Assembly (NCBI GenBank): GCA_947626935.1
Contig: CANQUD010000017.1
Location: forward strand, 1-43,462
Source of the DNA: an uncultured Clostridia bacterium
Lineage (GTDB): Bacteria; Bacillota; Clostridia; Christensenellales; Borkfalkiaceae
Direction of reading: 5' to 3'
DNA length: 43,462 nucleotides
Shown piece after piece: positions 4,776 to 42,929 of this stretch; the first letter of the stretch is position 1; every line of letters starts with the position of its first letter. The position numbers and the translations under genes were made by a program. The notes under the pieces were generated by a model. The model saw nothing but the letters and a program-made list of their open reading frames with translations. It searched no databases and was not told the origin of the DNA.

Positions 4776-4779
4776 ATCT

Positions 4780-5136: not shown

Positions 5137-7935
5137 TTAGCTTTGGAAAAATCCGTCCGTTTCGAAGATATGTGTCAGTTCATCATTGCTCATACAGCGA
5201 GCAACCTTTTCGCGGATAGAACTTTTTGACATATCCAAACGGAATGCTTTTTCCTTTCCGACAGAGTCTTTTTCCAATCTGATAAGCTGAATGCGTCCCA
5301 CTCCCGGGTTTTGCCTTGCATATTCCGCAAAGCCTTTTGCCTTGCCGAGGTTATCCGCCCTTGACGGATCGTGCGGTTCGAGTATATCCACAACATAATC
5401 GGTGCCTTCGCGGCGAACGATCAGGAAATCGGGATATGTCGGTTTCATTTCCCCGTTGATTTCATAGGGAATGCAGAGCGCCCAAGACTTTCTGTCATAA
5501 TTGCGCAACCAACATACAAAATCATCTCGATTTTCTTCTTCGGCTATAACAGCACTTTCCCAACTATTGAGTTTGATATGTGCAGTCCCTGAATCATCTA
5601 CAAAAAGATGATTGCTATACGCTTTCCCGGCAGTATCCCGCGGGACGCGAATTGTTTCGGGCAATCTGAAATTGTGCTTACTTATTACATCGCCATTGGA
5701 AACTATGTCATCATAACGTTTTTTGAACTGATCCGAAAGAGAAACCGTGCGCCGCCGGTAAGTATCGTTCAGCTCGTGAAAGCGATTTTTCGCGTATTCA
5801 TTGAGCGCATCCATGCAGCCTGCATTGGCGACAAAGATAATGACGTGTATTTTGAGATCGATCAATTCTTCGTCGTTAAAATATCGATTCACATACGCAT
5901 TAGCAACGCCCTCGCTTCCAAGACGAATTTCCGCAAGTCGGCATTGACGCTCAATGTCCGTATCCGTCGTAGAAAACAAGTCGTAAGTAGCATAATTGTC
6001 TATCGAATTTCCGAATACATCAAAAATCTGCGCTGTCAACTTAAACTGCGACACTTTTTCGGCAAGCGCGTCGTAATCTCCCTGTTCTTTCAGCGTTTCG
6101 ATATGCTTGTGGATCATCTCGGTGATGTCGGAGATTACGCGCTCTTTTGCGTCGATATCAATATGCGTTTGTGTCAAAAGGCGGGCAAGCGCATACAGAG
6201 ATTTCAAGTAATCGGTGATGCGTGTCGTGCGAACATCATAAGTCAAAAGTCCCATATCGTTTATTGCGCGCACAATAGCCTCACGGTCAAGCTTGGGAGA
6301 TGGCGAGGTGTTTTCCCGACTCGTTTCTTGTATAGGCGCTTCGTTTGAACGAGGGACAACAACGGGCGAGGAAATATGGTCGGTTTCGCCAGGCTGTGCG
6401 GTGTCCGCTTGGTCTTGAGCGTATTCTTCCAAAGGAGTAGCGGGGACAACGGGCTGTACATCGTCCGATATGTTTGCATGAGCGCCGGCGGGAGCGGGAA
6501 TCTGTCCCTCTGCCACTTGCGGCACTTTTCCATCGGAACTTTGACTTGAAGGGCGAAGAGATAACGTGCTGTAACTATCATTCCCAAGCGCTTCTGCCTC
6601 GATATCGGTAGGTATCGTCGCGCCTTCCTCGTTTTGCAAGGCGTTCACCACATCGCGCACAGTAGTTTCATTGAACTGCGGCAAAAACAGATGAACGTCG
6701 TTGAGCGTTTCGTCCACTTTGATATGCTGTTGGAGCGGAGTACGCACCATTCGCCCAAGCAATTGAGCAATATAGGTGTAATCGACCGCGCGGCGGAAAG
6801 ACATCATCGTCTCTGCGCGAGGGCAATCCCAACCCGTCGAAAGGGTTTCCTTGAAGAAAACCACTCTGATGCGTTTATCGTCCGCAATGCGCGAAGGTTC
6901 GCAATAGGGGACATCCAAGCCGTTGATTTGGATTGTAGACGTTCCCTCTCCGAAAGCATGAACAACTTGTCCCGCCGAAAAACGGTTTCCAAGCCTTTCC
7001 TCTATGGTATGCAGACATTCATCGAGATCCGTTGCAGAGATTTGATGACTTGTGCCGTTCTGCACCTGAATGACGAAAATGGGATTGACCTGCGTATAGT
7101 GCTGTTCATAGCAATACTGATACCAATGATCCCATTTCTCTTTCCATTCGTCCGTCGCCGCCTGCAAGACCGCCATGTCGTTGCCCGCATGTTCGGGATA
7201 TGTAATTACGATTTTGTCTTTCAATAGTCCCGAAGCGCGCACCTCGCTTGGCGTAGTCGTCACATAATGCGTGGTAGATTGAATACCCTCTGCCAAGCGA
7301 TTGAACCTCTGCGGCGTGGCAGTCATGCCGATGACCACGGGCATGGGCGGCAGCCGATCCGCTTCCGAACCTTTCAAGAACTTCTGCATGATCGTCGTGT
7401 TCTTGGTGAGATCGCTCGGCTTCTGCGCGCCGCGGTGCGCCTCGTCGATGATGAAATACAGACGATCCGATTTCTCCCGCACGGTATTTGAAAGAGTTTC
7501 CCAAATGGTATGTTGCCGTCCGTCGGAATGTTTGGTAAGATTGCTTGATTTGGAGAGCTTTTGCGTGTTAAGGAAGTATATGTGCCCATCTTCCAACAGC
7601 TCCATATCAAAGTCATCTTCCTTGATGGTGACGCATTGATTGAGCCGAATTTTATCTGCTTTCAAATCGATTTTTAGGCGAGATTGCTCATTGAGTTGGG
7701 GAGAATCCGAAAGCCAAACAAAAATCGCATCGTTCTGATCGGGATAGCGTTCGTCGCCATAGTAGATCGCCTCGATGAGCGCCGACATGACGATTGTTTT
7801 CCCCGCGCCCGTGGGAGCAGTATAGGAAACGACTTGCGGCGTATGCGTGCGATAATAGCCGCCAAGCGCTTCGGCGGTTTTCTGCCTTAAATTGGCAAGC
7901 GCTATCTTTTGAAAAGGAAACAATTCGACGTTCAT
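5137..7935 (-). CDS. Type III restriction subunit (Res), DEAH helicase-nuclease
   Basis: This 932-aa SF2 translocase is the restriction partner of the upstream methylase. Walker A TAPTGAGKT is at 39-47, DEAH at 164-167, TAT (motif III) at 205-207 and QLLGRMVRTP (motif VI) at 391-400. A low-complexity Pro/Ser/Thr linker separates the helicase from the C-terminal half. The C-terminal nuclease region has YPDFLIV at about 834-840, but where ExK is expected it reads DILEPH (850-855), so the nuclease core is a variant. The start is ATG at 7935 because a perfect SD (AGGAGGTGA) lies just upstream and the methylase TGA sits inside it. A longer frame to 7974 exists but would overlap the methylase. Confidence 0.85.
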   Translation of the reverse strand: MNVELFPFQKIALANLRQKTAEALGGYYRTHTPQVVSYTAPTGAGKTIVMSALIEAIYYGDERYPDQNDAIFVWLSDSPQLNEQSRLKIDLKADKIRLNQCVTIKEDDFDMELLEDGHIYFLNTQKLSKSSNLTKHSDGRQHTIWETLSNTVREKSDRLYFIIDEAHRGAQKPSDLTKNTTIMQKFLKGSEADRLPPMPVVIGMTATPQRFNRLAEGIQSTTHYVTTTPSEVRASGLLKDKIVITYPEHAGNDMAVLQAATDEWKEKWDHWYQYCYEQHYTQVNPIFVIQVQNGTSHQISATDLDECLHTIEERLGNRFSAGQVVHAFGEGTSTIQINGLDVPYCEPSRIADDKRIRVVFFKETLSTGWDCPRAETMMSFRRAVDYTYIAQLLGRMVRTPLQQHIKVDETLNDVHLFLPQFNETTVRDVVNALQNEEGATIPTDIEAEALGNDSYSTLSLRPSSQSSDGKVPQVAEGQIPAPAGAHANISDDVQPVVPATPLEEYAQDQADTAQPGETDHISSPVVVPRSNEAPIQETSRENTSPSPKLDREAIVRAINDMGLLTYDVRTTRITDYLKSLYALARLLTQTHIDIDAKERVISDITEMIHKHIETLKEQGDYDALAEKVSQFKLTAQIFDVFGNSIDNYATYDLFSTTDTDIERQCRLAEIRLGSEGVANAYVNRYFNDEELIDLKIHVIIFVANAGCMDALNEYAKNRFHELNDTYRRRTVSLSDQFKKRYDDIVSNGDVISKHNFRLPETIRVPRDTAGKAYSNHLFVDDSGTAHIKLNSWESAVIAEEENRDDFVCWLRNYDRKSWALCIPYEINGEMKPTYPDFLIVRREGTDYVVDILEPHDPSRADNLGKAKGFAEYARQNPGVGRIQLIRLEKDSVGKEKAFRLDMSKSSIREKVARCMSNDELTHIFETDGFFQS

Positions 7936-7939
7936 CTTC

Positions 7940-10033
7940 TCACCTCCTGACGGTATTGATGCGGAAATTATCAAGATAGTCGCGGTAGAGCTGATAACTT
8001 TCCTTGACTTTCAGCCCCGCGATCATATCCCGATAGCCCGCTTCCGAATCGGTAACGATAAACACCGTATCGATCTCGGGATGTTCTTTCAGTTTATCGG
8101 CAAATTCTGTGTACTGCTTTTCGTCTGTTAGCACCGCAAAACGGTTCTCGGGCAAAATCAACATATCGGGTGTATGCTCATCGATGACGGGGCATCTGCC
8201 GATTGCTCCCGCTTTCATCCAAAGCGTAGGGAGCATTTCTTGGAATTGCCTTCCGAGCGCGACCGCATTTTTATCGAGGAACCCGAGTTTGAAGTAGACG
8301 GCATTTGCCTTGAATCCGTCCGCCATGGGGATGTCGCTTCCCAGATAGTTCCCCTTAAGCGGATTGCCGTTCACGTCATGTCCTTCAATGGAGCAGACGG
8401 TGCGCGGCCAATTCACATAGCGTGCGATCCCGAGTTTTTCCCATTCCTCGTCGCCGGGATGATAGCCCTTTGCGGATAGTTCTTTCGCCTCGGCATCGGA
8501 AACCTCGTTATTCGTCACCATGATACAGCGTCTATGTCCGCCGTCCTCTGCGTTGAGAAGATTGACGGCATGAAGCGTTGTCCCAGATCCCGCAAAGAAG
8601 TCAACGATAAGTGCGTTAGGCTTATTGGCGACAAAGAAACGAATAACATCATGAACAGCGTATAAGGATTTAGGAAAGGTAAATCTTTTCTCTCCAAAAA
8701 TATTGCCCAACAAACGGGAGCCATATTGTGTAGCGTCATGAGAGGAAATATTCCATATATCACCAGGAACAGCACTTACAAAATCAGTATTTATATCATC
8801 AACTATAATTTCATTGTTAATGCCGCGTCCTATTTCAACAAACTCACCGTTGCAGATTTTTTCATATTCTCCGTTCTTTAATATGTAGACTGTATAACCA
8901 CGTATTGCGTTGCCACCAATTTTTACGCGACCTTGCTCCATACGTTGTAAAAAAGTCTCGGTTGTCCATTGCCACCGTCCTTCTGTCCCGTTGTCTCTTA
9001 TGGGCAACAAACTATATAGACCTTCTATTTGCGGAGCTTCTGATACTCCATGCGGAAGCGGATCGCCAATTTTTTCAATTTTCCCGCTTGTTTTATCAAT
9101 ATAAATAGGATAAAAACCACCAGGAGAATCTTCTCTTGATGCACCAGTCCCAGAGCGTTTTAATAAATCCCAGCGCACTTGTCCCGTATGAGTCCGTCCT
9201 TTGCTTGATACCCATTCACGAGGCAATTTTAATTTAGACGGTGCCGCTACACCAAAGGATATAAGATAAATGTATTCCCCGCTACGTCCAAAGCCTTCCG
9301 CGCGTGCTACCACTGCTGGATTTATTGCGCTACACACCATCTGCATTCTTGCCTCGGGGAACATCTCTTCAAGCAAACAACCAAGATGCAAATATTCTTT
9401 TTCATCGATCGTAACGATCAAAACAGAGTCTTGGGGATTAAGTAGTTTTTTCGCCAAGCGCAAACGCTTTTGCATCATAGAAAGCCATTTGCTATGACGG
9501 TATTGATCGCTCCCATCCACATAATCGTTGTTATATTTCCAATCGCGCGCGCCTGTATTGTAGGGCGGATCGATATAGATACAGTCTACTTTCCCCGCAT
9601 AGAGGTATTCAAGAAGCTGCAAGGCATGATAATTGTCTGCCTCGATGAGCGTGTGCCACAAATCGCTGTCGGGCGCATTGCAGACGCTGTCCATAGGCTT
9701 CAAATAGGGATAGATTGCCTCACCGAACTCCGCAATGGAGACAAGCTCTTCTACCTTAAACTCCGCCGTCGCGCTCTTGTCTTTATTGAGGCACGTCGCA
9801 ACGCCGTCCTCGATTTTGAGTACGATGTAAAAATCCCTGACTTGCCCTGTTTTCAACGCCACCTTCGAACCCTTTTTCACGGGGATATCCCAAAGCGGCG
9901 TACACTCGGGCAGATGTTCCTCAAAGACAAGCCCGAATTTTTTCTGCTTTGCGAGCTTGTCCGCCTCCGCCGCGATCCGCGCGCGCAGTTCGGGGTTTTC
10001 GATCTGTATAATGAGTTCATCCAAGATAGCCAT
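7940..10033 (-). CDS. Type III DNA methyltransferase (Mod), adenine-N6, beta class
   Basis: This 697-aa protein methylates adenine in its target and supplies the recognition function of the R-M complex. The catalytic motif DPPY (155-158) precedes the AdoMet-binding motif VDFFAGSGTT (about 473-482), the order of beta-class type III Mod enzymes. The region between them (about 230-400) is the target recognition domain and differs strongly from the second Mod in this window, although the flanking motifs are nearly identical. The N-terminus is an oligomerisation-type helical region. The start at 10033 follows the SD AAGGAGA. A 162-base leader with its own promoter separates it from the acidic micro-ORF. 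Confidence 0.9.
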   Translation of the reverse strand: MAILDELIIQIENPELRARIAAEADKLAKQKKFGLVFEEHLPECTPLWDIPVKKGSKVALKTGQVRDFYIVLKIEDGVATCLNKDKSATAEFKVEELVSIAEFGEAIYPYLKPMDSVCNAPDSDLWHTLIEADNYHALQLLEYLYAGKVDCIYIDPPYNTGARDWKYNNDYVDGSDQYRHSKWLSMMQKRLRLAKKLLNPQDSVLIVTIDEKEYLHLGCLLEEMFPEARMQMVCSAINPAVVARAEGFGRSGEYIYLISFGVAAPSKLKLPREWVSSKGRTHTGQVRWDLLKRSGTGASREDSPGGFYPIYIDKTSGKIEKIGDPLPHGVSEAPQIEGLYSLLPIRDNGTEGRWQWTTETFLQRMEQGRVKIGGNAIRGYTVYILKNGEYEKICNGEFVEIGRGINNEIIVDDINTDFVSAVPGDIWNISSHDATQYGSRLLGNIFGEKRFTFPKSLYAVHDVIRFFVANKPNALIVDFFAGSGTTLHAVNLLNAEDGGHRRCIMVTNNEVSDAEAKELSAKGYHPGDEEWEKLGIARYVNWPRTVCSIEGHDVNGNPLKGNYLGSDIPMADGFKANAVYFKLGFLDKNAVALGRQFQEMLPTLWMKAGAIGRCPVIDEHTPDMLILPENRFAVLTDEKQYTEFADKLKEHPEIDTVFIVTDSEAGYRDMIAGLKVKESYQLYRDYLDNFRINTVRR

Positions 10034-10106: not shown

Positions 10107-10115
10107 ATTATAGCA
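10107..10115 (-). promoter_or_regulatory. Internal extended -10 promoter before mod 1
   Basis: On the minus strand TGCTATAAT is an extended -10 element, with no clear -35. The surrounding 15 bp (10107-10121) recur exactly before the second methylase (18466-18480). Confidence 0.45.
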
Positions 10116-10195: not shown

Positions 10196-10291
10196 TTAAT
10201 CGTCCTCGTCGTCCATGTCCATGAAAATCATATCTTCAAGCTGTGCTTCCTCGTCGTCCGTGTCCACGAAGAGCCAATCAAAAATACCCAT
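10196..10291 (-). CDS. Acidic 31-aa micro-protein heading R-M operon 1
   Basis: The product begins MGIFDWLFVDTDDEEAQLED and ends MDMDDEDD. Fourteen of its 31 residues are Asp or Glu, and there is no Lys or Arg. A strong SD (AGGAGG, then CAAT, then ATG) and a promoter lie directly upstream. A paralogue at 18520-18615 heads the other type III R-M operon, differing at four positions (V9G, E15D, I22V, F23L). The hydrophobic start with an acidic tail suggests a small protein that mimics nucleic acid or binds the R-M enzymes or their regulator. This is inference. It could instead be a leader peptide. It is too short for standard gene finders. Confidence 0.7.
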   Translation of the reverse strand: MGIFDWLFVDTDDEEAQLEDMIFMDMDDEDD

Positions 10292-10312
10292 ATTGCCTCC
10301 TATGATAACCTC

Positions 10313-10321
10313 ATTATAACA
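10313..10321 (-). promoter_or_regulatory. Extended -10 promoter of R-M operon 1
   Basis: TGTTATAAT on the minus strand is an extended -10. The place of the -35 is occupied by the centre of a palindrome and has no consensus. The mRNA would start about 15 bases before the micro-ORF. Confidence 0.6.
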
Positions 10322-10324
10322 CAC

Positions 10325-10351
10325 CAAATATGACAGATATAGTCATGTTTG
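10325..10351. promoter_or_regulatory. Palindromic operator of R-M operon 1
   Basis: CAAATATGAC and GTCATGTTTG form 10-bp arms with one mismatch and a 7-bp spacer. It begins 3 bp from the extended -10, exactly as in the copy at 18649-18675, where the arms are perfect. Confidence 0.65.
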
Positions 10352-10370
10352 AAAAAGAATTTTTGCCGAC

Positions 10371-11630
10371 TTATAAATACCACGCGGGGATCTCTAAAAT
10401 ATTCTCGCGCAAGGCAGCGGGTTGCGGGCATAAACAGAGAATTGCGCCCGCGCCGCGCTTTTTATTTTCTATTTTGTCGAGTACGGTAAACGCCGCCGTT
10501 TCATCGGCTGTCACTTTCGCGCCTTGCTTGATTTCGATTGGATAGAGTACGCCGTTCTCCTCGATGATAAGGTCGATCTCGCTCTCTGCGTCCACTTCCT
10601 TGCCGTCTTTCAACACTTTCTTCTTATCTTTTCCGCGATAGTAAGAAACGCAGTAGCGGTAGTCAATGCCGCTGTTCGAGTAAGATTTCAGAATTTCGGA
10701 GACGACGAACGTCTCAAAAAATGCTCCGCTCATCGCGCCCACGGCAAGCGTTTCGGGCGTGAGCCAGCGGGTGAGATAGGCGGCAAGTCCCGTATCTCTG
10801 AAATAGAGTTTGGGCGTCTTGATCGCCCGTTTCAGCACCGACGAAGTGTACGGCTCTAACAAATAGATAATGCCCGAAGCCTCCAAAATGGAGATCCAAT
10901 TTTTGACCGTTCCTTGATCCTTGCCAATTTCGTCGGCGATGTTGGAATAATTGAGCATTTGCCCCGTGCGCGCGGCAACGGCGACCATGAACTTGCGGAA
11001 ATCGTCCAAATTCTGCACGGCGGAGAGGCTTCTCACATCCCGCTCCAAATAGGTCTTTACATAGCTTGCGTAGAACGTTCCCCAATCTACTTCACGATTT
11101 TGCAGTTCGGGATAACTTCCGCGGTGAATGATTTCCCAAATATTCTTCGGCGGCTTTGCCGTCTTGCCGCGTTCCTTCACATATTCCATTGTAGGAAGGA
11201 AAGGTATTTTGAAGTTGTCGCCCATAATCTCACGCAAAGAGAGTCCGCAAAGTTCAATAATCCCGACTCTGCCCGAGAGCGACTCGGAAACGTTCTTCAT
11301 GAGTTCAAACGGCTGTGAACCCGAAAGACAGAACAGCCCGCGCTCGTCCGCTTCATCGCATTTGATCTTGATATAGCGGAAAAGATCGGTCACCCGCTGT
11401 ACTTCATCGTAGATCACGGGCGGCTCGTTGAGCATTAGAAAAGTTTCGGGATTTTCCCGCGCCTGCTCCTCGATGAAAGGATCGTCGAAGGAGACATACT
11501 TTTTGTCGGGAAACAGCTTTTTCAGCATGGTCGATTTGCCCGTCTGCCGCGCCCCCGTCACCAAAATACATTTGAAAGTGCTGTCGCTCTTTTGTACGAT
11601 TTCCTCAATGCTTCGGCGAATATATTTCAT
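10371..11630 (-). CDS. AAA_14 / DUF4143 ATPase
   Basis: This 419-aa protein belongs to the common ATP-binding family with an AAA_14 domain followed by DUF4143. Walker A GARQTGKS is at 26-33 and the Walker B-like PVIYDEVQR at 71-79. The C-terminal DUF4143 has a PD-(D/E)xK-like core: EIDLII at about 351-356 and EIK at 366-368. These proteins are frequent in accessory regions and their biological role is not settled. The start is ATG at 11630, with GGAG just upstream and a consensus promoter 55-83 bp upstream. The open frame continues to 11762, but that stretch runs through the promoter. It ends about 20 bp before the operator of R-M operon 1 with no clear terminator, so read-through is possible. 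Confidence 0.85.
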   Translation of the reverse strand: MKYIRRSIEEIVQKSDSTFKCILVTGARQTGKSTMLKKLFPDKKYVSFDDPFIEEQARENPETFLMLNEPPVIYDEVQRVTDLFRYIKIKCDEADERGLFCLSGSQPFELMKNVSESLSGRVGIIELCGLSLREIMGDNFKIPFLPTMEYVKERGKTAKPPKNIWEIIHRGSYPELQNREVDWGTFYASYVKTYLERDVRSLSAVQNLDDFRKFMVAVAARTGQMLNYSNIADEIGKDQGTVKNWISILEASGIIYLLEPYTSSVLKRAIKTPKLYFRDTGLAAYLTRWLTPETLAVGAMSGAFFETFVVSEILKSYSNSGIDYRYCVSYYRGKDKKKVLKDGKEVDAESEIDLIIEENGVLYPIEIKQGAKVTADETAAFTVLDKIENKKRGAGAILCLCPQPAALRENILEIPAWYL

Positions 11631-11646
11631 ACCAACTCCAATAAAA

Positions 11647-11687
11647 AATATGACTAATCTCGAATTATTTTCCAGATTAGTCATATT
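11647..11687. promoter_or_regulatory. 14-bp inverted repeat in the DUF4143 promoter
   Basis: AATATGACTAATCT (11647-11660) and its exact complement (11674-11687) flank a 13-nt spacer. The repeat overlaps the -10 and predicted start point, so it is more likely an operator than an RNA hairpin. Its outer half-site AATATGAC matches the arms of the R-M operators. Confidence 0.6.
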
Positions 11688-11713
11688 ATACACCATTGTA
11701 AGCGAAATGTCAA
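11685..11713 (-). promoter_or_regulatory. Consensus promoter of the DUF4143 gene
   Basis: TTGACA (11708-11713), a 17-bp spacer and TATAAT (11685-11690): a perfect sigma-A-type promoter. Confidence 0.8.
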
Positions 11714-11784
11714 CCCTAAATTTGAAATAAGAAAAAATGCTTCTTAATGCCCTTGATCGCATAGTGAGAAGCGGCGCAAGAACG

Positions 11785-12405
11785 TTACGGTTTTTCCAAC
11801 TGCAACGCCTCTATCAGCTGGTACACCGAGGTGCAGGAGTTCCACTTCCAAATCTCAGGACGAGAGTTTTCGCCATATTTTTGCAAGTGACGTTGCATCC
11901 ATTTCTGATAGACGACTTTTGCGTTCTCCGTCGCCTTCTTATAGTCGGGAATGAAGTAACTTTTGAGAAGTTCCCTGTCCGTTTTGTCGTACTTCAAACC
12001 CGCTTTCTTCTTTCCCAAATAACTGTTCAAGAGGCGTTCATGGTCGTCCGTACTCATCTCCCGCTCGCATTTTTCAAAGTGCGAAATGAGCCAAACCTCA
12101 AAGGCGCGGTTCGAGAAGGCATACTTGATGTGATACTTTTCCGCTTCTGTGATCGCGGGAACAAGTCTGCCGTCGTCGAACGTAAAATCAATATCGAACA
12201 CGATCCAAACTTGATTGGAGTTCGGAAGATAACGGGTTGCGGCTCTCACAAGCCCCACGGGATCTGCGTTCTCGAAAATGATCTTTACGTCATAGATGCT
12301 CCGCTTCGACTTCAATAAGTCAAAGTAATTGTACTCCGTATTCTTGCCGTTCGTTATGATATAGAACTCGTTTCTTGTCGGTCTTTTTCCAAAAGTACGT
12401 CCCAT
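11785..12405 (-). CDS. rloB: RloB-like (AbiLii-like) Toprim nuclease
   Basis: This 206-aa protein matches the RloB family, a Toprim-fold putative nuclease. ITNGKNTE at 17-24 gives the N-terminal acidic site, VFDIDF (about 69-74) is the DxD motif, and SNRAFEVWLISHFE (about 98-111) is the family's signature segment. It starts 9 bases after the RloA-like ATPase with the SD GAGGTGA. The pair is equivalent to AbiL (AbiLi/AbiLii) and related to PARIS, in which an SbcC/OLD-like ATPase controls a Toprim effector that stops infected cells. The phage-defence role is inferred from these relatives. Confidence 0.8.
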   Translation of the reverse strand: MGRTFGKRPTRNEFYIITNGKNTEYNYFDLLKSKRSIYDVKIIFENADPVGLVRAATRYLPNSNQVWIVFDIDFTFDDGRLVPAITEAEKYHIKYAFSNRAFEVWLISHFEKCEREMSTDDHERLLNSYLGKKKAGLKYDKTDRELLKSYFIPDYKKATENAKVVYQKWMQRHLQKYGENSRPEIWKWNSCTSVYQLIEALQLEKP

Positions 12406-12414
12406 AGCTTCACC

Positions 12415-13716
12415 TCAATCGCGCGTCATGTCGGGCAGTTTGGAATAAAAACCCGCAAGATATTTCTTGCTGAAAAGGTCTGTTTTGCGTACATTCTTGA
12501 AATCGGAGAGCGCAACAAGACGGCTTTCGCCATATTCGTCTTTGCTCGTAAAATAAATCTGATCGCGGCGCAAATCTTCATCCATCAACATGACGTTGTG
12601 CGCGGTGCAGATAAGCTGTGCGTTCTTCGGATTCTTGTCAATGGAATTGAATAGTTTGATCAAAAAATCTGCTACCAAGAAATGCAGTTTGGAATCCATT
12701 TCGTCGATAAAGATCACGCGACCTTGATCGAGCGCGGCGAGAAGCCAGCCGAGATAGCACAGGAGCCGAATCGTCCCCTCGGAATTGAAGCCCACGTCCT
12801 TAAAGAGCATCACGTCCTTCTGCCTCGTTACTTTCTTATCGGAATCATAAACGTCGAATGTCGTCAGCATATCAATGTTGAACAGCTTGCTATCTTCCTG
12901 CTTGATCTGCCCTCTGACGGAATCGGGTTGAATTTGAAGTTGCGTATTGAAGCGAAGCACATCGTTCAGATCTGCCATGTTTACGATCTTGTCTTTTTTG
13001 ACTTCGATGCTCTTGATCCCGATATCCGCGCGTTGAAGGATCTTCAATGCTTGATAGAGATATTTTTGATTTTCCATCGTATAGATATCAAGGCTGTTCG
13101 CGTTGTTCTCGAAAACAATCAACAAGTTTTGAAACCACGCGAGAACATCCGAGAGGGAAGAGGCAATGTCCAAATGGAAATTGTTCCCGATGGATAGGAA
13201 CAATGCGCTCGGAGAAAGATTGATAAGCCGCGTCGCGCCATCATCCAAGCCCGTAATTTGCAATTTTGTACCCTTTCTCTTAAATACGGGCGTCAATCTT
13301 TCTTTGCGCTTGTCTAACCATTCCGAAGTTACGATTCCGCCGCACAAGGTAAAGCCATACCGATAGAAAGTTTCGTTTTGGATCAATTCCACTTCATACA
13401 AACTTTCCCGTTCGGAAGCGTCCTCGTAAAAAGCAAAGGGTTGATTGTCATGTACGATAGGAAGTTGCGACGCCGAAAACAGAAGGACATTCTTCATATA
13501 GGCTAACGCCTTGATGACATTCGTTTTCCCCGAAGCATTGCCGCCGAAAATGATTGCTGATTTTAAGAGAATATTATCGTCCTTGGGCATTAACTTCGCA
13601 TTGACGGGAAATGTATTGATCTCCTGCAATTCGCCGTCCTTGACTGCCTGCATACTCAAAACTGTTTCTTCGTAGAAAGATCTGCAATTTTTGAAGCGGA
13701 ATTGTACTAACATCAT
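12415..13716 (-). CDS. rloA: RloA-like (AbiLi-like) AAA ATPase
   Basis: This 433-aa ATPase is of the AAA_15/AAA_21 (OLD/ABC-like) type. Walker A GGNASGKT is at 58-65 and the Walker B segment FIDEMDSKLH at about 337-346. The next conserved switch is ICTAHN. The N-terminus FRFKNCRSF is the usual beta strand of this family. It is first in a two-gene operon with the RloB-like nuclease and is expected to be the sensor or controller. There are tandem ATGs at 13716 and 13713. The SD CGGAGG is 3 bases from the first and 6 from the second, so the second may be the one used. Confidence 0.85.
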   Translation of the reverse strand: MMLVQFRFKNCRSFYEETVLSMQAVKDGELQEINTFPVNAKLMPKDDNILLKSAIIFGGNASGKTNVIKALAYMKNVLLFSASQLPIVHDNQPFAFYEDASERESLYEVELIQNETFYRYGFTLCGGIVTSEWLDKRKERLTPVFKRKGTKLQITGLDDGATRLINLSPSALFLSIGNNFHLDIASSLSDVLAWFQNLLIVFENNANSLDIYTMENQKYLYQALKILQRADIGIKSIEVKKDKIVNMADLNDVLRFNTQLQIQPDSVRGQIKQEDSKLFNIDMLTTFDVYDSDKKVTRQKDVMLFKDVGFNSEGTIRLLCYLGWLLAALDQGRVIFIDEMDSKLHFLVADFLIKLFNSIDKNPKNAQLICTAHNVMLMDEDLRRDQIYFTSKDEYGESRLVALSDFKNVRKTDLFSKKYLAGFYSKLPDMTRD

Positions 13717-13736
13717 CTACCTCCGTATATGACTAT

Positions 13737-13765
13737 ATTCTACCACCATTATACCCAAATGTCAA
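13737..13765 (-). promoter_or_regulatory. Promoter of the rloA-rloB operon
   Basis: TTGACA (13760-13765), a 17-bp spacer and TAGAAT (13737-13742). Just downstream, 13727-13733 reads ATATGAC on the plus strand, a single half-site like those in the R-M operators. Confidence 0.7.
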
Positions 13766-13811
13766 TGTTTTAAGACACGATTTTGCGGTTTTTTTGCAAA
13801 AACAGCAATTA

Positions 13812-13845
13812 AGGCTTCTTGCTCATGATCGACGCAAAGAAGCCT
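13812..13845. repeat. 9-bp inverted repeat near the integration scar
   Basis: AGGCTTCTT (13812-13820) is repeated inverted at 13837-13845 with a 16-nt spacer. It lies between the defence genes and the tRNA fragment and may be part of an attachment region. Confidence 0.4.
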
Positions 13846-13857
13846 GCAAAAGACAGA

Positions 13858-13889
13858 TTGGGGAGTAGATTGGGGAGTGATTGGGGAGT
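13858..13889 (+). repeat. Three direct repeats of TTGGGGAGT
   Basis: Copies begin at 13858, 13870 and 13881, spaced 12 and 11 bp apart. Short direct repeats at about helical spacing and roughly 75-100 bp from a tRNA core are what arm-type binding sites of tyrosine integrases look like. That role is inferred. Confidence 0.4.
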
Positions 13890-13961
13890 AGAAGAGAGAG
13901 AATAGGCTGAAAATGGGCATTTTTTAATGATTTTTGCGTGTTTTTGGTCGATTTTTGCCCC

Positions 13962-14017
13962 GTTGCCACGGACTCTGACTCCGTCATTCGTTGGTTCGAA
14001 TCCAGCTACCCCAGCCA
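13962..14017 (+). tRNA. 3' fragment of a tRNA-Gln(CUG) gene, integration scar
   Basis: A perfect anticodon arm (ACGGA, loop CTCTGAC with anticodon CTG, TCCGT at about 13968-13984), a five-base variable loop, a T-arm (GTTGG, TTCGAAT, CCAGC) and the 3' acceptor strand TACCCCA-G-CCA are present. The 5' acceptor strand TGGGGTA and the D-arm are missing, and the sequence upstream does not pair. This is the classic remnant left when an element integrates into the 3' end of a tRNA gene. An intact copy would be expected further left, outside the window, so the element would extend leftwards. The 468-base gap 13717-14184 otherwise holds the rloA promoter, short repeats and two hairpins. Confidence 0.75.
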
Positions 14018-14043
14018 AGGCGTCGCAACACGACGTATTTCCA

Positions 14044-14069
14044 GAGTCCTTGCCTTTTGGCGAGGACTC
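14044..14069. repeat. 11-bp stem-loop after the tRNA fragment
   Basis: GAGTCCTTGCC and GGCGAGGACTC pair over 11 bp (one G-U) around TTTT. No T-run follows on either strand. Confidence 0.6.
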
Positions 14070-14094
14070 AACTTTTACGTCGGTTGCTCCTTTT

Positions 14095-14127
14095 CCCGAA
14101 AAATCTTGCTACGCAATCTTTTTCGGG
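14095..14127. repeat. Nested hairpin after R-M operon 2
   Basis: CCCGAAAAA pairs with TTTTTCGGG. Inside, TTGC pairs with GCAA around a 3-nt loop. The two helices are separated by a 2x2 mismatch that reads GA/GA in RNA from the minus strand. It lies 58 bases after the res 2 stop and may stabilise or end that mRNA. Confidence 0.5.
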
Positions 14128-14184
14128 AGTCCCATTGGCGCAAGGCGTATTTTGCAGAGCGGGCGTCGGGATGAACGATGCACA

Positions 14185-16431
14185 TTAAATAAACACCTCG
14201 ATGGGTTTCCACACATTTCTGTTTGTCACATCCTCTGACCAAATAGTGTTGGATAGGTAGAGCTGTGCTCCGACGGCGCGGACAAACCCCCACTTGATTT
14301 CGGGATGGCGCGATGCGTATTCCTTCAAAGCCTCAAATTTACAAGGTGCATACTTATCGATATTATTTGAACTGCCCTCTGCCGTCATGCCGCCTTTTGC
14401 TTCGATGATCCATACGTCGCCATTTGTCAATTTTATGATATAGTCCGGATAAAAATTCCCGCGACGGAACGCCATTCGATAAACGATGCTGAAATATTCG
14501 TCACCTTTATCTCCGTTTTTGTAGCACCATTCGACGGGATCGTAATTCTCACACCATTGTTCAAAAGAAATTTCCGTAAACGTGCGCTTGGGCTGGATCA
14601 GAATATTGCTCCCGTAATCCACAAACACATTTTTCTGCATGATTTTTGCGCTTCCCATGCGTTTGTGTTGCTTGTAATATTGTTCCCTCGGGATGCACCA
14701 ATCCGACGAAATAATGTCGGCTTCCTCAATATCACCGATACGTTCTGCGCTGATATCGCTGAAAACAGAGATGAGCCGATCGCGGTTGTTTACGAGAAAC
14801 GCGTTATATTCACGCAAACCCATGTTGTCTATCAGCTTATTCTCTCTTTCAAAGTCGATTTCTTCTTGTGACAATAAGGACATCTGCGTATCCAAAGGTC
14901 CGAACAACACACGCAAAGCATTATTGGAAATACTCTCGTCAACTTTGATCGCCCGCGCGATCCGACGTTTTGCATCCCTGATGATAAAACCGTCGTCATG
15001 GTTGTCGATTTGATGTTCTCCGCCAAAAATATGATTGAGGGTGCGAATATCATGCGTCGTTCTTGCCACGCCTTCAATTGCTTCCGCTTTCAATTTCGTT
15101 CCGAAAACATAGCCTCTACTCCTTTCCATTTCACGCCTATCCAATTTGCCGTTGCGGTCGAGATCGCAGTCCTGAAGCATTTGCTCCCGAATAACTTTCA
15201 CAACTGCCTCGGGATTTACGGCATAACGGTCACTTCCGTTGAGCGTCTCTTTCTGCAAAAGGATACTCGGCGCATTCGGCTTGCGTTTATAGAGATAAGT
15301 ATAGAAAGAATCGTTGATGCTACTTGTAAGGCCCTCAACATACTCGCTGTCGAGCGTATACACATAGCAATTGTCGATCAGAGGACAATCATAATGTTTC
15401 CGCTCCGGCATACGGCGGACACGTCCGATCGTCTGAATATTGAAACGTTCCGTTCCGCCTTCACGCAACTTGACAAGTATTTTTGCGCGAGGGCAGTCCC
15501 AACCTGTTGCAATTGCTTGTTTGAACAGCAAGAAAGCATATTGTCCATCGAGTTTTTTGATCTCTTGCGGATCATCCGGATGATCTCCGCTGAACCAAGA
15601 GGCAACAAGTCCCGAATTTTGCGAATATCCCATATCGTCCAAAGCCCGCTTGACCCGCTCGATCCATTCTTCATATCCATTGGGGAATTGGATCAGGACC
15701 AGCGGTCTGATTTTTATCCCCCTGCGGTCATATTCGGCTTGAATTTCCTTACGTTTTTTGTCGGCAAGTTCCAAAAGCATAAGATCGTCATCGAGTTTGT
15801 TATTTTCTTCAATAGCAGCCGATACGCCCTCATTGATAGAAATGCCTGTTGCGATCAAGCCGGCCGCAATAACGTCGTCGTCTGAAACGATCTCCGTATG
15901 GTCCCCTTTGCTGACAGGGGTGGCGGATATACGCAAAACATGGCGGGGCTGTATATTGGCGATATACTCGTTCGCCGTATCCTGATACTTATGTTCTTCA
16001 TCGATCAACATAAAGATCTCTATACCGTTCGTATGGCAAAAGAGAACTTGCGCCATCAGATCGCGATGCTCGCCATCGCGAAGTACAAGATTGGAAGCGC
16101 GGTTGATTTTGTCCCAATTGATAAAGAATACTTTCCCGCGGGGATCGCTTTCGTTGATAAAAGCGTAAACATCGCCGTCCGGAATGCCCGAAATGACCTC
16201 GCAGAAACTGTCTTGCGATTGTTTTTCAAGTCCGCCTGCACCGGGACATAACCACAGAAAAACCGTATTGGGATTCTCATCCAAGTACTCATCGATGAAC
16301 CAACTTGCGATCACCGTCTTTCCGGAACCTGTTGGAGCAGAAAGGACGATCTCCTCATGGTCGGCGCATTTATGTAATAAATTGTTGACGCATTTCTCTT
16401 GAAACGGGTAATTTTTCGATCCGATATACAT
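14185..16431 (-). CDS. Type III restriction subunit (Res) 2, DExH helicase-nuclease
   Basis: This 748-aa SF2 translocase has a PD-(D/E)xK tail and is shorter than Res 1. Walker A APTGSGKT is at 32-39, motif II is DEEH (144-147) rather than DEAH, SAT is at 169-171, and TIGRVRRMP is motif VI. The C-terminal nuclease core is intact: YPDYII (about 661-666) followed by IIEAKGG with Glu677 and Lys679. The start ATG at 16431 shares one base with the methylase stop (TAATG), and AAGGAGA is the SD. The two subunits are thus translationally coupled and form one R-M complex. Sequence similarity to Res 1 is limited to the motifs, unlike the closely related Mod proteins. Confidence 0.85.
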   Translation of the reverse strand: MYIGSKNYPFQEKCVNNLLHKCADHEEIVLSAPTGSGKTVIASWFIDEYLDENPNTVFLWLCPGAGGLEKQSQDSFCEVISGIPDGDVYAFINESDPRGKVFFINWDKINRASNLVLRDGEHRDLMAQVLFCHTNGIEIFMLIDEEHKYQDTANEYIANIQPRHVLRISATPVSKGDHTEIVSDDDVIAAGLIATGISINEGVSAAIEENNKLDDDLMLLELADKKRKEIQAEYDRRGIKIRPLVLIQFPNGYEEWIERVKRALDDMGYSQNSGLVASWFSGDHPDDPQEIKKLDGQYAFLLFKQAIATGWDCPRAKILVKLREGGTERFNIQTIGRVRRMPERKHYDCPLIDNCYVYTLDSEYVEGLTSSINDSFYTYLYKRKPNAPSILLQKETLNGSDRYAVNPEAVVKVIREQMLQDCDLDRNGKLDRREMERSRGYVFGTKLKAEAIEGVARTTHDIRTLNHIFGGEHQIDNHDDGFIIRDAKRRIARAIKVDESISNNALRVLFGPLDTQMSLLSQEEIDFERENKLIDNMGLREYNAFLVNNRDRLISVFSDISAERIGDIEEADIISSDWCIPREQYYKQHKRMGSAKIMQKNVFVDYGSNILIQPKRTFTEISFEQWCENYDPVEWCYKNGDKGDEYFSIVYRMAFRRGNFYPDYIIKLTNGDVWIIEAKGGMTAEGSSNNIDKYAPCKFEALKEYASRHPEIKWGFVRAVGAQLYLSNTIWSEDVTNRNVWKPIEVFI

Positions 16432-18326
16432 TATTCCGCCGTCTCCTTTAATTCTTTTCCGAAGAATTCCTTCGGAATATATTTGAAGCCGATCTCGTTC
16501 AGCCGTTCCATTTCTTCCGAATTAAAAATGATATTTTGGTTGACCCAAATTATTTCAATTTGTTTATACGCCTCATTCCCCATAACATATTTGCGGAAAT
16601 CTTCTTTATTCATTACAAGCACGTTTTTGATGTTATCTACTTCGATACCGTTTTGCAATTCTATCATTTCTTTGATATGCATGCAAAGTGCGTTGCTCAA
16701 AAGATAATCTTCCGGTTTCCGCGGCGTCCATTCACATTTGAAATATTTAACATTGCAGATGAACCCGTCCGATTTTTTGATTTTTGCCAGTGTGGGATAT
16801 TGTTGACGTTTGACTTTTCGATATATGATTTTCTTGAGCGGTTTCCCTGTTGCCTTGGATATCGATTGTGCCTCGTCGTCCGGTTCATATATTTCTATTT
16901 CAACACCGTAATCCCCTTTCAGGGGTTTCCCGTTTATATCCCTGCCCTCGATAGAACAGACTGTACGAGGCCAAGTAACATACTTCGCAATACCGAGATC
17001 TTCCCATTCCGGATCGCCTTTTTGAAAACCTTGTTCCGTTAATTTCTTGGCGTCCGCCAGAGAAACCTCGTTATTCGTGACCATGATACAGCGGCGATGC
17101 CCGCCATCCTCGGCATTCAGAAGGTTGACTGCGTGGAGCGTAGTCCCTGAACCTGCAAAGAAATCAACAATGAGCGCATCCTTCCCGCGGTCACATGCAC
17201 GCAAGCATTCCAAGACCAAATATAGAGATTTCGGAAAAGAAAAGCGATTTCCGATCATATTCGCTATCAATTGCGAACCGGAATTATTTGCAAAAAAAGC
17301 AGGATTTTCCCAAACAGTTTTTCGGGTATACCATTGCTTGTTACGTTGAATATTGACTATGCCTCGGATCTTCACTGGGACCAGTTCATCAAGAATGTCC
17401 CCCACCGTATTGTACGCGAATCGCCATCTTCGCTCAATACCGTTTGCATCAATAGGCCACACTGTAAGTTCTGTGCCGTTTTGTTCATTGGCAGACGTCG
17501 GATGAAAATCATCCGACGGGACTTCTCCCGTTCTTACGACCCGATCAGACGTCGTATCTACAATGATCGGATAAAAACAATTCGGCGATCCTTGCCGCTT
17601 GGAGTTTTCTTTTCCCCAATCCCGAAACGGCGTCAATTCGCCCGAAAGATTTCTCCGTTCTTTTTGGATATATCCATTTTTATTAGGGAAAATGAAATAC
17701 GCATATTCGTGGCAAAAGGAGAAATTGCCTCCCTGAATGCCGCCGGGATTATGTACGACAGCAACGCAGTTTATGATATATTCCGAAAACATCTCGTGAA
17801 GCAATAAACCCAATGTATTCATCTCGTTTTCGTCAATTGCGCAGATGATGGCTCCGTTGGGAGAGAGCAGCTTCTTTGCAAGTGTTAATCTGCTTTCCAT
17901 CATAGACAGCCATTTGCTGTGACGATATGCGTCGTTGCCGTCAACATAATCGTTGTTATACTTCCAATCACGTGCGCCTGTATTATAAGGCGGATCGATA
18001 TAAATACAGTCAACTTTCCCCCTATGTGTCTTTTCCAAAAGATACAGGGCTTGCAGATTGTCGCCCTCAATGATATAATTCCAGGGAAGAGTTTTGTCCT
18101 TGCAAATGCGCCTCTCCGGATCCTCACGGAGTACGGGAATATTGTTTTGCAACATTTCATCGACTTCATCGGTATGTTTTTCAAACACAAGTCCGAATTT
18201 CTTTTCGCGTATGTGATTTTCTATCTCGTTAAAAGCACGAATCGACGCATCGTCGCTATGCGTCTTTTTCAGTTCTTCCAAAAATTCAAGCATTCTCTGC
18301 CGCTTTTTCTGCGATAAGTTAGGCAT
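16431..18326 (-). CDS. Type III DNA methyltransferase (Mod) 2, adenine-N6
   Basis: This 631-aa beta-class methylase is the modification and specificity subunit for Res 2. DPPY is at 111-114 and VDFFAGSGTT at about 386-395. The segment after DPPY (YNTGARDWKYNNDYVDG) and the segment after the AdoMet motif (LHAVNLLNAEDGGHRRCIMV) are identical to Mod 1. The roughly 170 residues between are unrelated in sequence, so the two enzymes should recognise different targets. It starts at 18326 with the SD AAGGAGA. A 193-base leader with its own extended -10 separates it from the acidic micro-ORF at 18520-18615. Confidence 0.9.
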   Translation of the reverse strand: MPNLSQKKRQRMLEFLEELKKTHSDDASIRAFNEIENHIREKKFGLVFEKHTDEVDEMLQNNIPVLREDPERRICKDKTLPWNYIIEGDNLQALYLLEKTHRGKVDCIYIDPPYNTGARDWKYNNDYVDGNDAYRHSKWLSMMESRLTLAKKLLSPNGAIICAIDENEMNTLGLLLHEMFSEYIINCVAVVHNPGGIQGGNFSFCHEYAYFIFPNKNGYIQKERRNLSGELTPFRDWGKENSKRQGSPNCFYPIIVDTTSDRVVRTGEVPSDDFHPTSANEQNGTELTVWPIDANGIERRWRFAYNTVGDILDELVPVKIRGIVNIQRNKQWYTRKTVWENPAFFANNSGSQLIANMIGNRFSFPKSLYLVLECLRACDRGKDALIVDFFAGSGTTLHAVNLLNAEDGGHRRCIMVTNNEVSLADAKKLTEQGFQKGDPEWEDLGIAKYVTWPRTVCSIEGRDINGKPLKGDYGVEIEIYEPDDEAQSISKATGKPLKKIIYRKVKRQQYPTLAKIKKSDGFICNVKYFKCEWTPRKPEDYLLSNALCMHIKEMIELQNGIEVDNIKNVLVMNKEDFRKYVMGNEAYKQIEIIWVNQNIIFNSEEMERLNEIGFKYIPKEFFGKELKETAE

Positions 18327-18465
18327 GGTATCTCCTTATTGCGCCGTTCGATATGAGCCAAAAAAGCCAATGTCACCTTTGACAATAAATATGTTGAGCT
18401 ACGTCTTCGGTTTGTTCTTCATTCCATTTGTGTTTTCTTCCTTGAATATTCATGACCGCACATCC

Positions 18466-18474
18466 ATTATAGCA
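18466..18474 (-). promoter_or_regulatory. Internal extended -10 promoter before mod 2
   Basis: TGCTATAAT on the minus strand, inside a 15-bp block (18466-18480) identical to 10107-10121 ahead of mod 1. No -35 consensus is visible. Confidence 0.45.
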
Positions 18475-18519
18475 CATTTCACGCCAAAAACACGAGAAAA
18501 TTTACAATTTTCGAGAAAT

Positions 18520-18615
18520 TTAATCGTCCTCGTCGTCCATGTCCATGAGGACCATATCTTCAAGCTGTGCGTCCTCGTCGTCGGTGTCGCCGAAGAGCCA
18601 ATCAAAAATACCCAT
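18520..18615 (-). CDS. Acidic 31-aa micro-protein heading R-M operon 2
   Basis: The product begins MGIFDWLFGDTDDEDAQLED and ends MDMDDEDD. It is a paralogue of the micro-protein at 10196-10291, with 27 of 31 residues identical and the four changes mostly conservative. There is no basic residue. The SD AGGAGA lies 5 bases before the ATG and the predicted mRNA starts about 15 bases upstream. Conservation of the frame, of its length and of its position first in both type III operons argues for a real product. Candidate roles are a DNA-mimic brake on the R-M enzymes, a co-regulator at the palindromic operator, or a leader peptide. All are inference. Confidence 0.7.
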   Translation of the reverse strand: MGIFDWLFGDTDDEDAQLEDMVLMDMDDEDD

Positions 18616-18636
18616 ATTGTCTCCTATGATAACCCT

Positions 18637-18645
18637 ATTATAACA
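18637..18645 (-). promoter_or_regulatory. Extended -10 promoter of R-M operon 2
   Basis: TGTTATAAT on the minus strand, 3 bp from the palindrome. The -35 position reads GCCGTC, so the promoter probably depends on the extended -10. Confidence 0.6.
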
Positions 18646-18648
18646 CGC

Positions 18649-18675
18649 CAAATATGACAGACGGCGTCATATTTG
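18649..18675. promoter_or_regulatory. Perfect palindromic operator of R-M operon 2
   Basis: CAAATATGAC and GTCATATTTG are perfect 10-bp arms around the 7-bp spacer AGACGGC. The palindrome covers the -35 region, as expected for a repressor or auto-regulator. The same element at the same distance lies ahead of R-M operon 1. Confidence 0.75.
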
Positions 18676-19064: not shown

Positions 19065-20456
19065 TTACTTCCGAATGCCGCCCAACTGCTCCAAAATCGG
19101 TTCGCAATCCTTCCTCTCAAGGATTTGTCTTTCAACAAGAATGGGAATGAGCCTCTGGATCAGAGTTTCGTTTTTTTCAATGATGGCTTTTGCTTTTTCA
19201 TAGCGCTCTTCGATGATTTCGTCAAACATTGTGTAAAGGCGTTCCGTCCACGCATCCGAGTAGCACATAATTTCCTCCCGTCTTTCCGAATAGCGATGGG
19301 AGAATCCCAACATGCCCCAGTCGGACATAGCAAAGAGAATATCGTCCACCAAAGTAAGGTCATACTTCACATTCTCGTAGAGCTTGTGCAAAACAACCTC
19401 TTCCGCCGCGTAGCCTCCGAGGCGTACGACGATCGCGTTCATGAAATCTGATTTGGAGTACAATCTTGCAGGGATATCCTCTTCCGCATCTTCTTCGTCC
19501 TCTTCTTCATCTTCATCGTAGTCGTAGTCATCGTCGTCATCGCCTCCTTTGTAGTCTGAATCGAAATCGGAAAATAGCCCGTTGAAGAAGTCGTTTCCCA
19601 CCGAATCACGATCCAAATTCAAAACATATCCCCCGTCATTCATCGTCTTTGCCACGACGAACGCGCCGATATTCCTGCACGCGCGGACCGCATCGTCCAT
19701 GGCAGACCGCGCACGCGGAATATCCTCGGCTTTGATTTCCGAAATGCGATCATGAATGAGTTTTTCGCTCACAAAACCGCTTTCATCCGACTGCAGAATA
19801 CATTCATTGACGAGTGTTTCGAGTCCTGCGCATGAAAAACCGTTTGTGAGTTTTGCGATCTCCTCCATAGCCAACGCAAATTGACAAGAAGAGCGATCTG
19901 CATACATCTTCAAAATCGCCTCCCGTGAAGAAAGCGTCGGATTCCCGATCCAAATTTTCTTGTCGATCCTTCCCGGGCGCGTGAGGGTTCCAGGCAATGC
20001 GTCGTAATGATTGCACGTCGCGATAAACACAATGTTCCCCGTGCTATCCATGCCGTCGATCAGGGTAAGCAGCTGTGCAAGGATCGTTTTGGAGCGATCG
20101 GTCACATACGCCTCATTCCGATTGGGGAGCACCTTATCGACCTCATCGAAAAAGATCATTGTAGGCTCTTTGCGCTTTGACGCCTTTGTAAATTCCCTTC
20201 GGATGCGCCTGCAGACCGCGGCTTCATTCTCCACATTGCCGAGGTCGATCTTGAAAATCTCCAATCCGCATACACTCGCCATGACTTTGGCAAACAGCGT
20301 CTTGCCCGTGCCTGTCTCGCCATAAAACACGATCCCCTTCGGTAACTTGGCGCCTTTCGCTTCATACTTTTCGCGATTGCTGAAAATTTCACATAGCCGC
20401 ATCAGCTCCTCTTTCTCTTGCTCGTACCCTGCAATGCTTTCAAATGTGTAGTTCAT
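19065..20456 (-). CDS. FtsH-like AAA+ protein lacking the zinc protease site
   Basis: This 463-aa protein has the FtsH domain order but no membrane segments. Walker A GETGTGKT is at 46-53, Walker B IFFDEVD at 101-107 and the second region of homology with RPGR at 160-163. The C-terminal part aligns with the M41 peptidase (ARLYSKSDFMNAIVVRLGGYAAEEVV, given here only as an anchor around 330-355). The zinc motif HExxH is replaced by RNIGA at about 261-265. An Asp/Glu-rich insert lies at about 306-327. It should be an ATP-driven unfoldase or scaffold without proteolysis. The start ATG at 20456 has the SD AAGGAGG. It is divergent from a WYL regulator, which may control it. Confidence 0.75.
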   Translation of the reverse strand: MNYTFESIAGYEQEKEELMRLCEIFSNREKYEAKGAKLPKGIVFYGETGTGKTLFAKVMASVCGLEIFKIDLGNVENEAAVCRRIRREFTKASKRKEPTMIFFDEVDKVLPNRNEAYVTDRSKTILAQLLTLIDGMDSTGNIVFIATCNHYDALPGTLTRPGRIDKKIWIGNPTLSSREAILKMYADRSSCQFALAMEEIAKLTNGFSCAGLETLVNECILQSDESGFVSEKLIHDRISEIKAEDIPRARSAMDDAVRACRNIGAFVVAKTMNDGGYVLNLDRDSVGNDFFNGLFSDFDSDYKGGDDDDDYDYDEDEEEDEEDAEEDIPARLYSKSDFMNAIVVRLGGYAAEEVVLHKLYENVKYDLTLVDDILFAMSDWGMLGFSHRYSERREEIMCYSDAWTERLYTMFDEIIEERYEKAKAIIEKNETLIQRLIPILVERQILERKDCEPILEQLGGIRK

Positions 20457-42918: not shown

Positions 42919-42929
42919 TTTTCAAACTC

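Follow-up and report, generated by a model that had tools for sequence, protein, structure and literature searches.

How bacteria tame newly captured restriction-modification (R-M) systems is an open question, and it is raised by a 43,462-nt stretch of DNA (the window) from an uncultured Clostridia bacterium of the family Borkfalkiaceae (contig CANQUD010000017.1 of assembly GCA_947626935.1). Both of its type III R-M operons stand behind nearly the same strongly acidic open reading frame (ORF) of 31 aa, here called the micro-ORF. What is this ORF, and why does it head these genes? The comparisons below suggest that it encodes a conserved microprotein and belongs to an exchangeable 5′ head with a promoter palindrome that is shared with the gene of a WYL-domain regulator.

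The micro-ORF peptide and the operons behind it

The two micro-ORFs lie on the minus strand and translate as MGIFDWLFVDTDDEEAQLEDMIFMDMDDEDD and MGIFDWLFGDTDDEDAQLEDMVLMDMDDEDD, with 27 of 31 residues identical; MGIFDWLFVDTDDEEAQLEDMIFMDMDDEDD contains 14 acidic and no basic residues. These translations, and the good Shine-Dalgarno (SD) sequences in front of both ORFs (AGGAGG for copy 2 and the SD-like AGGAGA for copy 1), bear out the first-pass annotation of this DNA. The promoters that it called identical are similar instead, with 90% identity over positions −66 to +98 and a seven-base palindrome spacer that differs at four of its seven positions.

These are the only copies found in their own genome (E 2.7e-14 and 1.0e-11). 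Profile searches of 103 genomes from its genus (g1) recovered 13 strong copies (E < 1e-16), spread over 10 genomes including the own one, and, at the family level, 19 strong copies (E < 1e-15) in 14 of 398 genomes, distributed over two genera, g1 and g8; two weak family-level matches, in G382 and G333 (E 0.01–0.04), lie outside these counts. Among 396 genomes of the order, the single weak match outside the family (G610, E 5.9e-5) covers 20 residues with an internal stop, and two checks of its locus gave no matching frame, while the 391 genomes searched at class level gave no match except the own genome. Two further intact copies are more diverged (50% identity to the first alignment row for G290/L106 and 53% for G247/L108) and bring the intact set to 21, in which six residues, M1, F4, D5, D20, M24 and D25, are invariant across all rows.

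The ratio of nonsynonymous to synonymous change (dN/dS), computed on 19 of the 21 intact copies (L106 and L108 excluded) from pairs that are not independent, is 0.11 within g1 (78 pairs), 0.09 within g8 (15 pairs) and 0.13 between the two genera (78 pairs). Purifying selection, proposed earlier as a check, is thus found, and an SD-like site is kept where the upstream DNA is unrelated, at L022 (weak), L025 and L028. Judged by sequence, the micro-ORF does encode a protein, and its copies form one microprotein family, confined among the genomes searched to two genera of one Clostridia family.

No member of the set matches Pfam or NCBIfam at E ≤ 1. One of the 21 matched a tail-assembly family of PHROGs (E 0.27), and a profile search of the PDB returned two weak matches to the glycine cleavage H protein (E 1.6–1.7), all taken as chance. 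A pattern search of the genome_contigs collection returned 13 stretches, all of them uncultured Clostridia records with the sample label 'Lapin', which as a label would suggest rabbit gut. A phage or plasmid origin was rejected, as viral_contigs gave no pattern match and tblastn to phages and plasmids was empty at E ≤ 10, both searches being limited by the short query. Searches of the open-access literature yielded no report of such an acidic microprotein in this position. Three of the 19 strong copies lie less than 300 bp from a contig end, versus 0.29 expected (at both ends of G087:C25 and the start of G041:C20, 60–192 bp from the end), hinting at assembly breaks caused by repeats or strain variation at the junction; metagenome assemblies may also miss or break micro-ORF copies.

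Downstream DNA is readable for 19 of the 21 intact copies, those at L018 and L026 running into contig ends, and a methyltransferase-bearing R-M operon is headed by 14 of the 19. Type III Mod-Res genes follow both window copies and the copies at L024, L028, L101, L102 and L105; a PLD/SNF2 helicase and an Eco57I methylase follow at L022, L027, L065 and L103; Eco57I-type enzymes follow at L023 and L106; and a type I-like N6_Mtase with an S gene follows at L020, where the PADLOC type IIG and type I models score alike. The types at L101, L103 and L105 are assigned by N-terminal similarity to scanned proteins, and those at L024 and L027 by DNA similarity to scanned loci, rather than from scans of their own. 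The other five copies precede a PD-Lambda-5_A-like piece (L021), PDC-S31 and AIPR/AbiU genes (L104) or unknown genes (L025 and L108), or have no same-strand gene nearby (L019).

The search in related Clostridia that the first-pass annotation proposed has thus returned 21 intact copies in two genera, before R-M genes of several types, and its conserved acidic microprotein tied to R-M genes stands. Its narrower idea of a type III-specific component is not supported: type I-like and helicase/Eco57I operons are headed too and two homologous mod genes lack a micro-ORF, so the tie to mod-res is neither exclusive nor constant. Type III is too narrow a frame, the association being with R-M operons in general. 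That the micro-ORF is the first gene of each window operon holds insofar as it precedes mod, but the intervening gaps of 162 nt (copy 2) and 193 nt (copy 1) each contain the second promoter-like sequence TGCTATAAT. The gap to the next gene is 4–66 nt in 8 of 16 measured copies and 86–193 nt in the other 8, and seven of the eight long gaps contain a TATAAT-like second promoter. Given these gaps and second promoters, the window operons fit the description of the micro-ORF as first gene less closely than those of relatives do.

The 5′ head and its promoter palindrome

BLAST comparisons between loci, together with segment alignments, show that the alignments break around the micro-ORF, with homology starting at the ATG or stopping just past the ORF in several cases. 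Between L022 and L027 the R-M genes are 92–99% identical, the micro-ORF 86% and the spacer 53%, and the upstream DNA is unrelated. For window copy 2 and L024, homology begins at the ATG and runs through the R-M operon (92% in the micro-ORF, 79% in the spacer and 90% in Mod), the DNA further upstream being unrelated. The opposite arrangement is seen for window copy 1 and L021, which share the upstream side and the ORF and differ downstream. Homologues of window Mod 2 in G041:C2 (98% protein identity) and G031:C20 (76%) stand behind another promoter and another small ORF, and homology to window mod 2 resumes at the mod ribosome-binding site. In G015, where a homologous helicase (75%) occurs, the micro-ORF slot is filled by an XRE-like ORF of 65 aa, its helix-turn-helix (HTH) named by eye. 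Where homologous loci have an alternative to the micro-ORF head, it is a replacement. The head is therefore exchangeable, being swapped between R-M operons, with a slot that can hold an apparent regulator gene.

A MITE-like mobile mini-element was rejected, since the aligned edges show no terminal repeats by eye and no clean empty site was found. Gene conversion within genomes was dropped as a general rule: within-genome micro-ORF pairs differ at 0–9 of 87 nt, compared with between-genome means of 8.3 (g1) and 8.0 (g8), and only G309, with 0 differences, stands out. A family of unknown proteins of about 400 aa ('gene X', MKFD...DIVDF; L028:6894-8136, L024:8644-9846 and L150) adjoins micro-ORF heads or stands behind the same promoter, its frame being broken in L028.

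At least seven of the eight bases of a palindrome, TGAC-N7-GTCA, are present 50–55 nt before the start codon in 13 of the 21 intact copies; L025, with 7/8 bases in another place and no −10, is left out of the 13. The first T of TGAC lies 26–27 nt upstream of the −10 wherever a −10 is recognised. With the −10, mostly of the extended kind, set at −12 to −7, the palindrome is centered at about −32, the −35 position. The layout of DriD sites, in which the operator overlaps the −35 and its spacing to the −10 is constant, is therefore found wherever palindrome and −10 are both recognised.

The same palindrome precedes a gene for an HTH_11-WYL-WCX regulator on another contig of the own genome, which thus contains the WYL-domain regulator that a regulon of the DriD/BrxR/CapW type calls for. 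This regulator is found in 18 of 21 chosen genomes (13 with and 8 without an intact micro-ORF), and of 19 orthologues inspected, the own one among them, 15 have TTGACA-N5-TGTCA ahead of the gene. The palindrome that precedes the WYL gene itself is shifted by 5 bp toward the −10 and contains a −35-like TTGACA, a layout that autorepression would be expected to show. A matrix built from the 15 WYL-gene sites only was run over 379 kb (29 loci), and 10 of its 13 best matches fall on micro-ORF operon heads; both strands were counted, so that the ten matches represent six different heads, and the loci were mostly chosen around micro-ORFs, which makes the scan less than genome-wide, with L057–L059, chosen for palindrome matches, adding competitors.

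Across the genus, the extended promoter pattern with up to three mismatches occurs at 33 sites in 20 of 103 genomes, and at none in the reversed control. Eight sites are at micro-ORFs, one fronts the L028 operon and the other 24 lie elsewhere. The genes behind 23 of these 24 were read, 9 by Pfam scan and the rest named from their first residues, and comprise two of Cas3 type, three hsdM, two serine recombinases, an OLD-like ATPase, an SbcD-like phosphoesterase, one 'gene X', ten sigma-like or unknown proteins and three other unknowns. Palindrome and −10 promoters at L136–L165 in g1 genomes may represent a genus-wide WYL regulon of defence and mobile-element genes.

Gene layout of the window

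The features of the two operons and their heads are collected below; all lie on the minus strand.

Features of the two R-M operons and of their 5′ heads in the window
Feature	Position	Strand	Evidence
Micro-ORF copy 2, 31 aa, stop included	10196..10291	-	translation; E 1.5e-14
Micro-ORF copy 1, 31 aa, stop included	18520..18615	-	translation
Palindrome ATGACTATATCTGTCAT, putative operator of WYL-domain regulator	10330..10346	-	sequence pattern
Palindrome ATGACGCCGTCTGTCAT, putative operator of WYL-domain regulator	18654..18670	-	sequence pattern
TATAAT with TGT in front (extended -10), promoter of copy 2	10313..10318	-	
TATAAT with TGT in front (extended -10), promoter of copy 1	18637..18642	-	
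SD AGGAGG, micro-ORF copy 2	10296..10301	-	
SD-like AGGAGA, micro-ORF copy 1	18620..18625	-	
Second promoter-like TGCTATAAT, gap between micro-ORF copy 2 and mod 2	10107..10115	-	
Second promoter-like TGCTATAAT, gap between micro-ORF copy 1 and mod 1	18466..18474	-	
Type III Mod 1	16431..18326	-	N6_N4_Mtase; PADLOC MTase_III
Type III Res 1	14185..16431	-	ResIII
AAA_21 ATPase, after Res 1, same direction	12415..13716	-	PADLOC AbiLi
RloB-like protein	11785..12405	-	PADLOC AbiLii
AAA_14/DUF4143 ATPase, directly upstream of micro-ORF copy 2	10371..11762	-	
Type III Mod 2	7940..10033	-	PADLOC MTase_III
Type III Res 2	5137..7974	-	ResIII; PADLOC REase_III, weak

The AAA_14/DUF4143 ATPase stretch is common to the window and G087 (L018). 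Downstream of Res 2 and on its strand (1557-5124) are a 1072-aa protein, which matches nothing in Pfam or PADLOC, and a protein of 114 aa; a similar 114-aa ORF stands behind the related operon in L024. A 394-aa protein (250-1434) has a weak Sigma70_r4 match (E 0.0008, below the cut-off) and resembles in style the sigma-like genes that other genomes have downstream of the palindrome promoter. An FtsH-like AAA/M41 protein (19065-20456) encoded upstream of micro-ORF copy 1 contains a long acidic linker, DDDDDYDYDEDEEEDEED, and its gene is kept in G002 at about 90% DNA identity. The only known RNA element found in the window is an FMN riboswitch on the minus strand (42926-43042).

Proposed mechanism, alternatives and known systems

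The sequences compared establish four things: conservation at the protein level, the swapping of heads, a palindrome common to them and the WYL gene, and its constant spacing to the −10. The palindrome shared with the WYL regulator gene and the XRE-type gene that fills the slot in one homologous operon favor a control role for the micro-ORF over a subunit role. In the scheme that we propose, a 5′ control head with the micro-ORF as its first cistron would be exchangeable and could be attached to R-M operons of many kinds. The core WYL/HTH_11/WCX regulator is predicted to bind the palindrome and, in a DriD-like manner, to activate promoters without a good −35; it is the match of the palindrome/−10 geometry to the DriD layout that suggests induction of the heads. 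The trigger may be single-stranded nucleic acid released by DNA damage or phage attack and bound by the WYL domain, and R-M would then be induced on demand by DNA damage or phage DNA.

The microprotein, made together with the R-M enzymes, could act in trans as a nucleic-acid-like acidic peptide, tempering the response by occupying a host nucleic-acid-binding protein or, generally, the DNA clefts of R-M enzymes; this part of the scheme has less behind it than the induction, and the simplest candidate partner would be the WYL regulator itself. What the peptide itself contributes is the weakest link of the scheme, and for it occupation of the WYL pocket or of a DNA cleft is the natural guess, given 14 acidic residues in 31. 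Within g1 the micro-ORF stays similar between genomes (the mean of 8.3 differences noted above) though most of the systems behind it are unrelated, and a host-encoded or generic nucleic-acid-binding partner is therefore more likely than one within a single R-M type. We judge the whole explanation, an exchangeable micro-ORF head, WYL-induced R-M defence and a microprotein that tempers the response, to have about an even chance of being right. The further proposal that the microprotein is a general restriction modulator, standing in for single-stranded nucleic acid at the WYL sensor or for DNA at the R-M enzymes, and that the portable head would thereby give any captured R-M operon both induction by damage or phage and a built-in brake, is put forward tentatively and as rather improbable. 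If the scheme is true, a portable head, a conserved microprotein and a core WYL sensor would give one lineage a single switch for many defence systems, and the WYL-type site also fronts cas3-like and hsdM genes. The peptide is small and cheap, and its effect is directly testable.

Several observations weigh against this scheme. The micro-ORF is dispensable for keeping an R-M operon, because its three decayed copies all stand before R-M genes (L107, with an internal stop; L109, with its first half missing; and L113, truncated and with a changed start) and because the homologues of window Mod 2 in G041:C2 (98%) and G031:C20 (76%) lack it. The first-pass annotation had named loss of the ORF amid conserved surroundings as something that would refute its reading, and at these five places such loss is seen in part. 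The second promoter-like site in the gap would let many R-M genes be transcribed without the micro-ORF. Eight of the 21 intact copies have no good palindrome beside the ORF: at L028 and L103 a full palindrome precedes an inserted gene that is followed by the micro-ORF and then R-M, at L022 the same arrangement is degenerate, L065 and L101 retain only 6/8 bases, and none is present there at L025 (7/8 elsewhere), L105 and L108. The own genome has three further exact palindromes (C22, C33 and C40) that are not tied to R-M. The palindrome is a putative site of the WYL regulator, an assignment that we infer; the regulator is missing in G007, G012 and G020, of which G007 has the micro-ORF, and in G098 a palindrome is present at the micro-ORF and none is seen before its WYL gene (L115). 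Because the palindrome before the WYL gene is displaced by 5 bp toward the −10, the site could serve activation or repression. An AlphaFold model of the peptide has two short helices (residues 3–8 and 14–26) at a pLDDT of 66, too low for interpretation. Finally, the tendency of the micro-ORF to follow its host is confounded with descent across genera: L028 and L102 share a Mod (79% DNA identity), and their micro-ORFs have diverged to a similar degree, at 22 of 87 nt.

Other readings assign the ORF a different role. Were the peptide a DNA-mimic brake that binds the DNA clefts of R-M enzymes and limits self-restriction at establishment or after DNA damage (restriction alleviation), its charge would be expected, as would the many R-M types, which suit a general mimic, and a place as first cistron, hence early synthesis. 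We nevertheless think this unlikely, since 31 aa is far below the size of Ocr and ArdA, which are both much larger, since 5 of the 19 readable copies head non-R-M genes, unknown genes or none, and since R-M operons persist without the micro-ORF or after its decay. The possibility that only translation of the short ORF matters, acting in cis through attenuation, mRNA protection or a strong start, with the peptide itself unimportant, draws on its shortness, on its place 5′ of an operon wherever an operon follows and on the 4–66 nt gaps in half of the measured copies. Such a leader cistron would not be expected to preserve its peptide far more than its DNA or to keep the same layout in L106 and L108 at 50–53% identity; no terminator-like hairpin on the transcribed strand and no Rfam match was found near either window copy, and the second promoter-like site in many gaps bypasses the micro-ORF, all of which makes this reading decidedly improbable.

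The ORF might instead be retained as a short homology for the exchange of defence modules, a cassette-like junction in which coding is secondary. The alignment breaks at the ATG or just after the ORF fit this idea, as does the excess of copies near contig ends, but synonymous sites change much faster than amino acids, which is the wrong pattern for a DNA site, and no recombinase is seen constantly nearby (ORF starts read by eye), so that a recombination anchor seems very unlikely. Least credible is an ORF that arose by chance or rides along neutrally within a promoter that is itself conserved: the restriction to one bacterial family among the genomes searched, and absence or decay at some loci, would be in keeping with it, and a dN/dS near 0.1 and SD-like sites kept beside unrelated upstream DNA leave it little probability.

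Among known systems, the nearest counterpart in position is RptR, whose gene opens a defence island with type I R-M; it is a 79-aa helical DNA-binding dimer that represses its own promoter at TAGCTA (PMC12255303). The microprotein differs from this repressor in length, in the lack of any basic residue and in its operator, and does not belong with it; with 31 aa and no basic residue, DNA binding by the microprotein is implausible. The WYL regulator BrxR, named alongside CapW, controls defence from within the island that it regulates (PMC9122601); DriD is reported to be triggered by single-stranded DNA that its WYL domain binds, and its sites cover a non-optimal −35 with a constant spacing to the −10 (preprint PMC12340889); and PafBC, a WYL-type DNA-damage regulator, has a motif that is not palindromic (PMC6789036). 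The heads described here resemble all three in the WYL transcription factor and in defence or DNA-damage genes as its putative targets, BrxR and DriD in the inverted-repeat operator, and DriD also in the −35 site and its constant spacing to the −10. In contrast to BrxR, the regulator gene is on another contig and near-universal in the genomes tested, and here the operator moves along with exchangeable heads, the microprotein being part of one type of head.

Ocr and ArdA are similar to the microprotein in strong negative charge and a link to R-M, and differ in being borne by phages or mobile elements (PMC2806950, PMC3969726), where the microprotein has no phage or plasmid match. Pfam, NCBIfam and tblastn against phage and plasmid records showed no sequence relation to the Ocr or ArdA families, and PHROGs none that convinces. 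Type II R-M systems have controller (C) proteins, small HTH DNA binders that set the timing of R-M. The microprotein is likewise a small gene product tied to R-M operons, but it lacks an HTH, a Pfam or NCBIfam match and basic residues, which separates it from C proteins and other small HTH regulators. Control of defence islands by WYL regulators (BrxR) and a small R-M regulator as first ORF (RptR) are already known; what appears to be new, judging by searches of the open-access literature, is an acidic microprotein, unlike a DNA-binding protein in composition, that occupies the first-ORF place and is common to unrelated R-M types of one lineage.

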